From Ligilactobacillus faecis (GTDB lineage: Bacteria > Bacillota > Bacilli > Lactobacillales > Lactobacillaceae): a stretch of DNA of 64,000 bases. A program made the position numbers and the translations under genes. Within the stretch, counting starts at the first letter, position 1; every line of letters starts with the position of its first letter. The DNA is taken from NCBI RefSeq assembly GCF_029889745.1, contig NZ_CP123639.1, positions 1,841,501 through 1,905,500 of the forward strand, read 5' to 3'. Below, one piece after another: positions 14,090 to 64,000 of the stretch. Under the pieces are notes generated by a model. That model had not been told where the DNA came from and searched no databases. It saw only the letters and a list, made by a program, of their open reading frames with translations.

Positions 14090-14365
14090 TTGACTAATCT
14101 TTAGGCTACGCTTAAACTGAACTGTATAGTTAATAAAGACGTAGACGGAAAATAGTAGGTCAGCAAACGAGTCAGGGAAGAGCTGGTAACTGGAAAAGCT
14201 CGCTCGCTTTGATGATTGAATTTCACTTCCTGAGTTGCTGTTGGGATTCTAGTAAGATGAATAACAGATCGGTTCATGACCGTTTTATCATGGAAAAGTG
14301 CTGTTAGATCAACAGAACAAGGGTGGTACCGCGAAGCCTCGTCCCTTTTTAGGGAGGGGCTTTTT
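14090..14365 (+). ncRNA. T-box leader (tRNA-Phe sensing) with promoter, upstream of pheST
   Basis: The promoter is TTGACT (14090-14095), 17 bp, TAAACT (14113-14118). The leader carries the T-box sequence AGGGTGGTACCGCG (14320-14333), which pairs with the acceptor end of uncharged tRNA. The terminator AAGCCTCGTCCCT/AGGGAGGGGCTT with a T-run follows (about 14334-14366). TTC within GAATTTCACTTCC is a plausible Phe specifier. When tRNA-Phe is uncharged the antiterminator forms and pheST is transcribed. Confidence 0.93.
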
Positions 14366-17931: not shown

Positions 17932-18165
17932 TTGCATTTAATGAACTAGACTTATATAATGGTAGGGATAGAGTTCAAGGAGTGATTAATAAAGAGCATA
18001 TTATAAGTAAATTTAAGCGGATCTAAAATGCTAAAGTTATACATAAATAAGTTGGTGAGATGCTTTTAGATCGTTCGTAATAATTTAGGAAAGGAAGCTA
18101 TATTCTTACATAGATCAGTTCGTCCAAGTAAGTCTATGCGAAAATATAGTAAGATAGGTGATATT
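17932..18165 (+). promoter_or_regulatory. mltG: mltG promoter and ~200-nt structured leader
   Basis: TTGCAT (17932-17937), 17 bp and TATAAT (17955-17960) form the promoter. The leader contains a 9-bp perfect inverted repeat GATCTAAAA (18020-18028) / TTTTAGATC (18064-18072). Then comes AAAGGA (18090-18095), directly followed by GCTATAT (18097-18103), a 40-nt loop and ATATAGT (18144-18150). The second arm overlaps the first codons if the ATG at 18136 is the start. AGGTG then precedes a TTG at 18166. Confidence 0.6.
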
Positions 18166-19269
18166 TTGGATAAGAAAGATAACGATCAAAAGAAGCCTGT
18201 AGCTAAAAAGATCATTATTGGTGTGATCGCTTTGATCGCAGTGTTGGTCGTTTTAGTGGGGGCTTTTGGTTATAACTATGTTAAAACTGCTTTACAGCCT
18301 TTAGATAGAAACTCAAATAAGCAGATCGAGGTAAAGATCCCAGTCGGTAGTACAAATAAACAGATCGGGGCGATCCTTGAAGAAAAGAAAGTGATCAAAA
18401 GTGGTTTTGTCTTTGATTACTATGTCAGAACAAATAAGCTTGCCAGTTTTAAAGCGGGTTATTATGAATTAAAACCTTCGATGAGTTTAGCAACGATCGC
18501 CAAAGAACTGCAAAAAGGTGGTGCAAGTCAACCGCTGAGTTCAGGGAAAGTTCTAGTCAAAGAAGGGGTCACGATCGATGAGATCGGTGATGTGATCGCT
18601 CAAACGACAAAATTCAAAAAGCAAGATTTTTTAGCTTTAGTCAATGATGAAAGCTTTTTGAATGAATTAAAAGCGAAATATCCTGAACTTTTGACTTCAG
18701 CACTTGAGGCTAAAGATGTCCGATACCGTTTAGAAGGTTATCTTTACCCAGCTACGTATGCTGTCCAAAAAAATGAGACTTTAAAGCAATTAGTCGAACA
18801 GATGGTGGCTAAAACAAATGAAATGCTGACACCGTATTATACAAAGATCAAAGAAAAAAACTATACGGTCCAACAAGTATTGACACTTGCTTCGTTAGTT
18901 GAACGTGAAGGCGTGACTACTAAAGATCGTTATAAGATCGCAGGTGTTTTTGAGAATCGGTTAGAGAAGAATATGAAGATCCAGTCGGATATTTCAGTCT
19001 TATATGCGCTTGGAAAGCACAAACAAAATGTTACTTATAAGGATCTTGAAGTTGATTCGCCATATAATCTTTATAAAAATGAAGGCATGGGTCCTGGACC
19101 GTTCAATAATCCAAGTATCGCTTCCGTCAAAGCTGTGCTAGATCCTATTGATAAAGATAAAGGCTATCTTTACTTTATCGCCAATATGAAGACTGGCAAA
19201 GTTTACTTCTCAAAAACTTATGCTGAACACCAAGAACTAACTAAAGAACTTGAAAAAGATAATCAATAA
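18136..19269 (+). CDS. mltG: Endolytic murein transglycosylase MltG (YceG family)
   Basis: It cleaves nascent glycan strands at the membrane and is thought to set glycan length during elongation. One transmembrane helix (about residues 25-47, from [13 protein letters not shown]) leads to a LysM-like region and the YceG catalytic domain. The catalytic Glu is in LASLVEREG (residue 256 from the ATG), with a C-terminal [10 protein letters not shown] motif. The start is uncertain: ATG 18136 lacks a nearby Shine-Dalgarno, whereas TTG 18166 follows AGGTG at 5 nt. Both leave the membrane helix intact. It leads the mltG-udk-greA run. Confidence 0.93.
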
Positions 19270-23477: not shown

Positions 23478-23483
23478 TATGTT

Positions 23484-23731
23484 AAATCGAAGAGGCGCGA
23501 CTGACAAGAGTACGGTGCTTTAGCTGCTATAACAGCATTTGAGGGCATTCTGAAAGGGAAAGTCGCCGAAGTTTAGATGATTTATAGATCATTTGAACTG
23601 GGGCGTAGTTTAAGAGACTACGGACTGTCGCAACTTAGTCAACAGTTGCGGAGTGCTATCGATCAAATTGAATTTTTGCACTTATTCAGCAAGGATCTTT
23701 TTAGGCGATAGGACTAAGAAGATCCTTTTTT
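23484..23731 (+). ncRNA. Lysine riboswitch (L-box) with terminator
   Basis: The leader has the L-box landmarks: GAAGAGGCGCG at the 5' end, GAGGGCATTCTGAAAGGGAAAGTCGCCGAAG-type core (key block AAAGTCGCCGAAG), ACTGGGGCG, GACTGTCGCAAC and GTTGCGGAGTGCTATC closing the junction near 23663. The expression platform is AAGGATCTT/AAGATCCTT with T6 (23691-23731). Lysine binding favours the terminator, switching off lysA-dapD-deacetylase-dapA-dapB-asd. Confidence 0.95.
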
Positions 23732-30155: not shown

Positions 30156-31115
30156 CTAGTGTTCACTGAATAATTTTGTCAAGCGTTCCATAAAGCGTGC
30201 TACAAAACGTTCTTTATCAACATTGACAGCTGCTTTAGTCGTCAATGCAGGTTCGTTGATCCGTGTTTCATCGCCGATCGTCCGACCAGCATAAGGTCCT
30301 TCGGTATCGACTTTCATATTTAAGTCAAGCGTTGTCACCAAGGTTGGATCGATCGCAGCAGCTACGGCTAAAGGATCGTGAAGCGCACATCCAGCAAGGT
30401 GAGCATTAGCGACTTTATAAGCATTGATATAGTAGTCAGTCAAATCAGCATATTTTTCACCTGAAAGTGTCTTTAAGTCACGCCATTGTTGAGTTTCTTT
30501 AGGTGTAAGTAAAGTCCTTGTCGTAACGTCTAAGCCGATCATCGTCAATGGTAGTTTGCTACGGAAAACTTCATCGGCAGCTTCAGGATCTTGATTGATA
30601 TTGGCTTCGGTCACTGGTGAAACGTTACCTGGGACAGTCAAAGCGCCACCCATCAAGGTGACTTTTCCGATCAGATCAACGATCGTTGGATCTTTTTTGA
30701 TCGCAGCGGCTAAGTTTGTCAATGGACCAGTTGGAACGATCACAAGATCTTTACCATATTTGTGTGCAGCTTCGATCAAGAAATCAACACCTGGAAGTGT
30801 TTCGGGCGTACGGTCAGCTTTTTTGAGTTCAACTTCACCGATCCCGTTTTTCCCGTGGATCAAAGCGCTGATCGGCATAACTTCAAAGTTATCTTTAGTT
30901 GAAGCATGGGAAAGACCCGTATAAACCGGAACATCAGGGCGACCTAGCAACTCAAGTAAGTCAAGACTATTTTGGACTCCATCTTCAACAAGGATATTTC
31001 CGTAAGAACCAACGATCCCGATCAGATCGCATTCTTCTGATGCAAGTGCATAGGCGATCGCTAACGCGTCATCGATCCCAGTATCAAGATCAAGGATCAT
31101 TTTACATTTTGCCAT
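30156..31115 (-). CDS. Nucleoside hydrolase (IunH/Rih family)
   Basis: It hydrolyses the N-glycosidic bond of ribonucleosides, releasing base and ribose. The calcium-binding signature DLDTGIDDA lies at residues 8-16; the second Asp region TRTLLTP and the C-terminal active-site His in CALHDPLAV are present. Length is 319 residues. Whether it prefers uridine, inosine or both cannot be told. The start MAKCKMILDLD fits the family; a TTG 11 codons earlier falls inside the leader hairpin. The leader is long and structured, with a Shine-Dalgarno 71 nt upstream of the ATG. Confidence 0.93.
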   Translation of the reverse strand: MAKCKMILDLDTGIDDALAIAYALASEECDLIGIVGSYGNILVEDGVQNSLDLLELLGRPDVPVYTGLSHASTKDNFEVMPISALIHGKNGIGEVELKKADRTPETLPGVDFLIEAAHKYGKDLVIVPTGPLTNLAAAIKKDPTIVDLIGKVTLMGGALTVPGNVSPVTEANINQDPEAADEVFRSKLPLTMIGLDVTTRTLLTPKETQQWRDLKTLSGEKYADLTDYYINAYKVANAHLAGCALHDPLAVAAAIDPTLVTTLDLNMKVDTEGPYAGRTIGDETRINEPALTTKAAVNVDKERFVARFMERLTKLFSEH

Positions 31116-31194
31116 ATTAAAACCATTTACTATATAAAATGTGAACAAACATAGTAGGTCGTGTTTGTGAAAGTGATATAGCTTTTCCTTCCTT
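31116..31194 (-). promoter_or_regulatory. Distant Shine-Dalgarno and long hairpin before the nucleoside hydrolase gene
   Basis: On the minus strand AAGGAAGG (31187-31194) is followed by GCTATAT (31176-31182), 40 nt, and ATATAGT (31129-31135); the ATG comes 13 nt later. Inside the loop a second perfect 7-bp stem ACAAACA/TGTTTGT makes an almost continuous long hairpin. The arms and the 40-nt spacing are identical to those upstream of mltG (18097-18150). Confidence 0.7.
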
Positions 31195-31681
31195 AAATAG
31201 TATTTACTACTGTCAACATAGCTAGAGATGGCGTTAAAGGTATTTTCTTTAAGCTTGACGCTACTAGATCACCAGCTAACTTTAGAATTTCTGGGAGACT
31301 TTTGTTTTGTGTGAAATTCTTTATTTGATAAAATGTTGGATCTTCCTAGTATCGGCTCCACATTTTGCCTTTCTAGCAGACACTATAGGATATTTGGCGC
31401 AGTGACCATAGTAATAGCTATTTAGTTGAAAGTTAGTAATTCATACTTTTAGTTTATCAGAAATTGTTGATTTTGTACTTATTTATCGGTAAAAAATTAA
31501 TAAAATATTGATAAAAAACATAAATCATCCGTAAAAACTGCGATGACAAAAAATTACTTTAGGCAACAGTTAGCTTTTTTCAAGAAAAACGTATGCTATA
31601 ATGGATAATAATGATTTTTAAATTAAATTTAAGATAACGACCAAATGAGCTCAGCTAAAAATGCTGTTGAAGGTGGAATAT
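31195..31681. other. 487-bp divergent intergenic region
   Basis: No gene was found. On the minus strand, toward the nucleoside hydrolase gene, a compact fold is possible: CCTA..GTGTC pairs with GATACTAGG around 31345-31390 and encloses an inner GGC/GCC hairpin. It matches no riboswitch I can name. On the plus strand an extended -10 TGCTATAAT (31594-31602) faces the DUF3013-like gene. The stretch 31450-31560 is very AT-rich. Confidence 0.5.
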
Positions 31682-63704: not shown

Positions 63705-63735
63705 ATTATAAATAAATAAGGAAGTCCTTTAAGAG

Positions 63736-64000
<265 letters not shown>

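Follow-up and report, generated by a model that had tools for sequence, protein, structure and literature searches.

The window analysed here, a stretch of 64,000 nucleotides from Ligilactobacillus faecis, contains two genes on opposite strands whose start codons are preceded by a hairpin with the arms GCTATAT and ATATAGT. Upstream of the nucleoside hydrolase gene, GCTATAT is followed by exactly 40 nt, by ATATAGT and, 13 nt on, by the ATG at 31115; upstream of mltG, the same arms are again separated by exactly 40 nt and followed after 15 nt by a TTG at 18166. The arms, their spacing, the Shine-Dalgarno (SD) sequence before them and the inner stems ACAAACA/TGTTTGT and CATAGA/TCTATG had been described in the initial annotation, and all were found at both genes, the arms and spacing exactly so.

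Nucleoside hydrolase leader (minus strand):
30156..31115, minus strand: nucleoside hydrolase gene, ATG start at 31115; best matches below the NCBIfam cut-offs
31129..31135, minus strand: ATATAGT, 3' arm of stem S2
31136..31145, minus strand: 3' box, TTCACATTTT
31145..31168, minus strand: inner hairpin P3, ACAAACA/TGTTTGT (shuffle test at family level)
31176..31182, minus strand: GCTATAT, 5' arm of S2
31183..31194, minus strand: transposon-supplied SD, AAGGAAGGAAAA; duplex energy -7.3
31347..31385, minus strand: hairpin P0, stem TAGTGTC/GATACTA with one G-U, loop TGCTAGAAAGGCAAAATGTGGAGCC
31357..31366, minus strand: 5' box AAAATGTGGA inside the P0 loop, complementary to the 3' box, G-U included
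31130..31428, minus strand: IS607-derived relic of about 299 nt that replaces the native SD of the gene (by-eye orthologue comparison; edges approximate)

mltG leader (plus strand):
17979..17982, plus strand: GGAG, probably a remnant of the target, at the left edge of the insertion (by eye)
17983..18149, plus strand: IS607-derived relic, also present at this position in L. animalis, L. apodemi and L. murinus; edges approximate
18020..18072, plus strand: P0-like hairpin, GATCTAAAA/TTTTAGATC (by eye; 5' box unrecognisable)
18087..18096, plus strand: transposon-supplied SD, AGGAAAGGAA
18097..18103, plus strand: GCTATAT, 5' arm of S2
18109..18138, plus strand: hairpin P3, CATAGA/TCTATG
18144..18150, plus strand: ATATAGT, 3' arm of S2; the 3' box preceding the arm is lost
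18156..18160, plus strand: AGGTG, possible re-evolved local SD; local energy -3.7
18166..19269, plus strand: mltG, probable start TTG at 18166

The two copies differ in age and state. The SD energy of the nucleoside hydrolase gene is -2.2 kcal/mol locally against -7.3 kcal/mol before the hairpin, and this gene probably depends on the distal SD. The mltG copy is more decayed. Of the 18 orthologues displayed, the four from the close species all have the relic and the remaining 14 lack it; being common to the four, the relic reflects the older insertion. Because an SD-like sequence lies near the mltG start (-3.7 kcal/mol here, -6.0 kcal/mol in L. apodemi) and the 3' box of the copy described here is lost, mltG may be escaping the arrangement, and the module is perhaps unneeded there.

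A family of modules with paired changes

Across the 2.38 Mb genome, the pattern GCTATATN{30,50}ATATAG gave 27 strand-hits, which fall at 17 places (many of them read on both strands), compared with a single hit for the reversed pattern. Two of the 17 places are the mltG and nucleoside hydrolase copies of the window; a further one, at 805969, lacked an SD and the flanking motifs and was dropped as a chance match. Since the distance between the arms varies across the family, the shared 40-nt spacing of the window copies is a coincidence and not the mark of conservation for which it had been taken. The module reads, in order, P0 hairpin, spacer, SD, GCUAUAU, P3 hairpin, 3' box, AUAUAGC and start codon, and the consensus of the aligned copies is AAGAAAGGAAAA (the SD), GCUAUAU, UUUCUUUCUC, a variable P3 hairpin and UUCACAUUUUAUAUAGC, usually with a start codon at most 16 nt on. 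The upstream hairpin P0 and the pairing of its loop with the 3' box go beyond the parts seen initially. In three copies of the same genome (L049, L052 and L058), S2 occurs in a register variant in which UAUAUAAUUC replaces GCUAUAUUUC and a downstream UUAUAUA is still complementary.

A covariance-model search, which had been proposed as a check on the two hairpins, was carried out with a model built from 33 copies. At E values up to 0.01 it found matches in 10 of 26 genomes of the genus: at least 58 in the genome described here, at least 21-22 each in L. animalis, L. apodemi and L. murinus, and at least 8, 5, 3, 2, 1 and 1 in the remaining six, all of these being lower bounds because at most 150 candidates per genome were scored in the genus and at most 10 in a wider sample of the order. 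In that sample, under stricter filters, 8 of 395 genomes matched, five of the eight outside the genus. The conserved RNA element that had been suggested is thus borne out by further copies and by covariation, although it belongs to the right end of an IS607-type transposon and its relics and, with matches in so few genomes of the order, does not form a regulon spanning the Lactobacillaceae. Of at least 142 model matches, 124 had a fetched locus, to which the mltG copy was added by hand; removing three of these 125 without a recognisable 3' arm left 122, and removing three duplicates left 119. No TnpB motif lies within 500 nt upstream in 96 of the 119, a class that includes some elements cut by contig ends and some old relics.

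Outside the genus, the order sample contains at least ten copies, eight of them readable (L168 and L172, near contig ends, were left out). Seven of the eight have a TnpB motif upstream. The eighth, L166, from genome G073 of another genus of the family, has none within 600 nt upstream and has an ATG 10 nt behind AUAUAG, so that copies lacking TnpB are not wholly confined to Ligilactobacillus, and relics or leaders may exist beyond it. Five loci with a 3'-box-like match that is not preceded by an SD and 5' arm (L055, L059, L061, L066 and L067) were kept out of the family; L059 and L061 could be truncated ends. At L061 (1996380, minus strand, same genome), left-end-like GGGGAGTGGTTTAACTGTTGC is followed directly by right-end-like CTTACATTTTATATAG with no SD between, and this locus is perhaps a much shortened derivative. 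A match in Planctomycetota (L077) was set aside as chance for want of the SD module. No Rfam family for the module was found in the window or in the scanned relic loci, where the scan returned only Transposase-1 and two sub-threshold microRNA matches. Elsewhere in the window, Rfam models at gathering score mark a lysine riboswitch (23483-23666), a T-box leader (14133-14349) and a PyrR binding site (63722-63829), all on the plus strand.

Putative stems were examined by comparing the score of each copy with its own partner to scores with partners swapped between copies. For the P0 stem around the 5' box, evaluated in the 76 of 93 copies with a strong enough box, own partners scored 15.2 and swapped partners 10.3 (maximum of 500 swaps, 11.1), and a score of at least 12 was reached in 58 of the 76 copies, against a mean of 16 and a maximum of 25 in 100 swaps. 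Pairing P1, between the 3' box and its best upstream complement, scored 18.6 with own partners and 16.7 with swapped ones, none of 300 swaps reaching the own value; the signal persists in the 65 copies whose box lacks CACATTT. Pairings seen include CAAGTGTGG with CCACACTTG, AAATATGG with CCATATTT and AAATGCGG with CCGCATTT, and in 64 of 93 copies a GAAAG-like motif stands before the best complement (background 0.107). For S2, whose positions were set by likeness to the consensus, none of 5000 swaps equalled the own value; among the 36 copies that depart from the consensus the signal is weaker, with 11 of 5000 swaps reaching it. Paired S2 variants include CTATCT with AGATAG and CTGTAT with ATACAG. 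P3 beats shuffled sequences at the 0.1 level in 72 of 84 copies; 12 have none or too little sequence. The SD/anti-SD pairing S1, through which the SD could be exposed on a signal as had been suggested initially, gave no covariation signal (own 15.03, swapped 14.99). These tests show co-variation in P0, between the P0 loop and the 3' box, and in GCUAUAU/AUAUAGC.

IS607-type elements, relics and insertion sites

Each of the two window hairpins is the fossil right end of a transposon of the IS607 type, which inserts into the ribosome-binding sites of genes. In the same genome the module terminates elements with an open tnpB (L041-L047), and it also lies behind tnpB in L. agilis, in two Limosilactobacillus assemblies and in one Lachnospiraceae genome. 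In the Limosilactobacillus element L081, a TnpA of 220 aa matching the Resolvase and MerR models adjoins a TnpB of 387 aa matching the Cas12f1-like TNB and OrfB_IS605 models, and from these matches we classify the element as IS607-type. In L042 and L044, both from the genome described here, tnpB is open while only ORFs of 105 and 104 aa, respectively, are present in the tnpA region, which suggests that the nuclease gene outlasts the gene for the transposase. Among the 20 TnpB matches of this genome, 13 belong to other TnpB groups, with open frames of 311-446 codons.

The Transposase-1 RNA (RF03014) sits between the tnpB stop codon and the module; its model ends before the SD, and the module lies outside it. 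It was matched beside the module in all eight tnpB elements scanned (L041, L043, L046, L081, L083, L245, L249 and L252) and also in the relic L025. Among copies without tnpB, L022, L049 and L098 gave no match, nor did the window at gathering score, and L021, L023 and L011 gave matches below that score. L083, from Lachnospiraceae bacterium TWA4, has the same right-end architecture with the Transposase-1 RNA outside the Lactobacillales. At the left end, the hairpin directly before the tnpA start codon, ATATCTAC-AAGAAAGATAAAATGTGAG-GTAGATAT, is P0. Several forms of decay were recognised by eye: remnants of tnpB persist in L021 (2171948), L023 (before mreD), L025 and L057, the relic L049 still has ATGGC behind P0, as in tnpA, and short relics with neither a tnpB remnant nor ATGGC also occur.

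Both ends could be set in 12 of 21 elements or relics examined (L079 and L083 are outside that set); the search used gave no right end in L256 and L257, and no usable left or right end in L045, L047, L245, L249-L251 and L255. GGAG, the SD core, adjoins the left-end motif in all 12, directly or at a distance of a few nt; the search expression that retrieved L246 itself contained GG(A/G)G, and the other 11 left-end motifs were found without it. The right end reads ATATAGC-AG, and once ATGTAGC-AG. The target thus contains GG without a longer duplication, the ends sharing at most AG, as in IS607-family transposons, which likewise have a serine recombinase TnpA, a TnpB, a GG-containing target and no target duplication (PMC6188088, PMC4227781). 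IS607 itself has been reported to insert at GG. The paper on ISFba1 gives, in the part consulted, the TAM AGGAG for IS607 TnpBs of 18 of 22 strains and GAGGG for four (PMC11061315).

Empty sites occur in relatives. Upstream of the nucleoside hydrolase gene, the relic-free sequence of L. animalis reads ..GAATTACTAACTTTAGGAGATGATTTAC-TTGGC, and at the same site AGGAG is kept in L. murinus and L. apodemi despite a few base differences. The sequence described here matches its relatives up to GAATTACTAACTTT, after which the relic of about 299 nt replaces the SD; it alone carries the relic among the 14 orthologues displayed. At rbfA, right after infB, the three close relatives carry AGGAGG a short distance ahead of the ATG, where this genome has a relic instead, alone among 18 displayed orthologues. 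The panels are partial (18 of 24 orthologues for mltG, 14 of 25 for the nucleoside hydrolase and 18 of 26 for rbfA). Because of these empty sites GGAG is assigned to the target and not to the element wherever such a site was seen, an assignment read from aligned orthologues that fits a crossover at the AG common to both ends; for elements without one, GGAG could in principle be the element's own end.

Removing the element from the written sequence at scpB leaves GGTGGGAG-AAACA-ATG, and doing so at the gene beside L081 leaves TAGAGGAG-GAAGTTGACTTTT-ATG. In five of the 12 elements (L043, L246, L248, L252 and L253) a start codon with an ORF of at least 45 codons lies 2-7 nt behind the joint. L081 has an ATG 13 nt behind it, with only 91 nt of sequence after, and L247 an ATG at 10 nt whose frame stops after 20 codons; the remaining five were judged by eye to lie away from the SD of a recognised gene. 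By the same means, L044 was seen to follow an ATG directly and L041 to lie near the end of a reading frame. Insertion at SD sequences is, taken together, well supported.

Proposed substitute ribosome-binding sites and competing readings

The start codon noted just after the window hairpins is a general feature: where no TnpB motif is present, 90 of the 96 copies are followed, at most 16 nt after the 3' arm, by a start codon that opens an ORF of 50 codons or more, against 2 of 96 in a reverse-side control. By the same measure, 10 of 23 IS-borne copies have no start codon within 16 nt. Local SDs, those lying between the module and the start codon, are weak (median -2.3 kcal/mol, with -5 or better in 9 of 89), whereas those before the hairpin (median -5.9 kcal/mol; 87 of 89) resemble those of ordinary ORFs in the window (median -5.8 kcal/mol; 28 of 43), distal strength being partly built in because the covariance model contains the SD, and local weakness not. 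These medians are best fitted by the proposal, made for the two window genes, that a distant SD is positioned by the hairpin. Because the local SD reaches -4 kcal/mol or better in 23 of 89 copies and no stronger SD precedes the hairpin in 7 of 89, some genes may do without the distal SD. With S2 closed, the GG-to-start-codon distance would be 8-22 nt, with a median of 16 (88 copies), which is longer than the usual spacing.

In the genome described here, genes behind the module include rbfA, scpB, rodA, hflX, accD, radA, gyrA, mreD, secG, dnaJ, an mprF-like gene, a DEAD-box helicase gene and a PemK/MazF-like gene; the scpB copy is IS-borne and the mreD copy has tnpB remnants. The module L201 lies directly before gyrA (746034-746104, minus strand). 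For dozens of genes, some of them essential, translation now appears to start from a folded RNA leader that derives from the transposon.

We consider it probable that insertion parts a gene from its SD and that a replacement comes with the right end, the hairpin bridging the gap from this SD to the start codon. The transposon, with its serine recombinase TnpA and RNA-guided nuclease TnpB, inserts at GGAG, the SD core, so that it often lands between SD and start codon. Its right end brings its own SD and then the P3 hairpin enclosed by S2, whose foot stands a few nt before the host start codon. Insertion, its position and the covariation are seen in the comparisons; from these we infer the bridging, in which folding would place the new SD a median of 16 nt away from the start codon and so keep the gene translated. 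After loss of tnpA and tnpB, P0 and the right-end module persist as the leader of the gene, and the P0 loop pairs with the 3' box next to S2, which probably makes the initiating fold more stable. Retention of this pairing suggests that folding is still important to the host gene once tnpA has been lost.

S1, S2 and P3 may, in the intact element, be kept as a guide-RNA scaffold, which is a point against this substitution of the ribosome-binding site as the main reading. In an extended form, which we regard as possible but on balance doubtful, the right end would have two uses, within the intact element as the 3' scaffold of the guide RNA used by TnpB, the host start region being the guide, and as a substitute translation-initiation leader when it is part of an mRNA. 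These uses would be in competition, P0-3' box pairing and S1/S2 acting as the toggle, and TAM, insertion site and SD would be one motif by adaptation. If so, the element would live inside the leaders of essential genes, and its relics would be a new class of leader RNA.

A host regulatory RNA (a riboswitch, thermometer or protein-bound leader) captured by a transposon, in which S1 hides the SD and S2 with P0-3' box pairing frees it, would be in keeping with the mutual exclusion of S1 and S2 as simple stems, with single-sequence folds that pick S1 in several copies, with the covariation of P0 and P1, and with L166, a copy without a TnpB motif in another genus. We nevertheless find it unlikely: S1 itself does not co-vary, no shared theme is evident among the host genes, the nucleoside hydrolase and rbfA insertions are recent and confined to single species, and the copies in most other genera are IS-borne, as the TnpB motifs of seven of the eight readable copies, of the two Limosilactobacillus assemblies and of the Lachnospiraceae copy indicate. 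Derivation from IS607, high copy number and several stages of decay would equally suit mobile-element debris or MITE-like units kept by transposition and having no function in translation. Such debris is improbable as an explanation of copies that sit in the sense orientation before start codons in 90 of 96 cases, mostly with a weak local SD, and that, without a TnpB motif, keep P0 stems and P0-3' box pairing through paired changes, which double-stranded DNA ends recognised by a serine recombinase should not need.

Pairing between the 5' and 3' parts of the element, and the GGAG half-site at its left edge, raise a further reading, in which P0 and the 3' box would fold the RNA so that the element is excised and a native SD is rejoined to the start codon, as in IStrons. 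This seems very improbable and was rejected as the main reading, since a cmscan search of L041, L043 and L046 at E values up to 0.5 gave only RF03014 and no group I intron, and rbfA has no SD visible by eye upstream of P0; an internal SD would, moreover, have no purpose.

Substitution of the ribosome-binding site has a parallel in hairpin-bridged split ribosome-binding sites such as that of phage T4 gene 38, where a hairpin shortens the effective spacing between SD and start codon. That is a single phage case, whereas the modules described here are a transposon-borne family with dozens of copies in one genome. Accounts of the IS607 family, in the parts consulted, describe neither SD targeting nor a right end that restores translation (PMC6188088, PMC4227781), and no description of SD targeting with a substitute SD was found in the open-access literature searched. 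ISFba1 shares a TnpB beside a structured RNA, and its TAM AGGAG equals the insertion motif found here, although its RNA model is RAGATH-18 where Rfam finds Transposase-1 in our elements; the words "ribosome" and "start codon" are absent from the main text of that paper as accessed (PMC11061315). IStrons, as presented in the sections consulted, likewise make the insertion of a mobile element harmless at the RNA level, but they splice by a group I intron, of which none was found here, where the proposed remedy is a substitute ribosome-binding site (PMC4227781).

If true, this reading would add to IStron splicing a second route by which insertion is made harmless at the RNA level, namely exchange of the destroyed ribosome-binding site. 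It would give meaning to the AGGAG motif of IS607 TnpBs and explain a large set of unusual leaders in this Ligilactobacillus, among them those of gyrA, accD, rbfA, secG and hflX, and the family would provide dozens of natural experiments on the distance that a folded RNA can put between an SD and its start codon.
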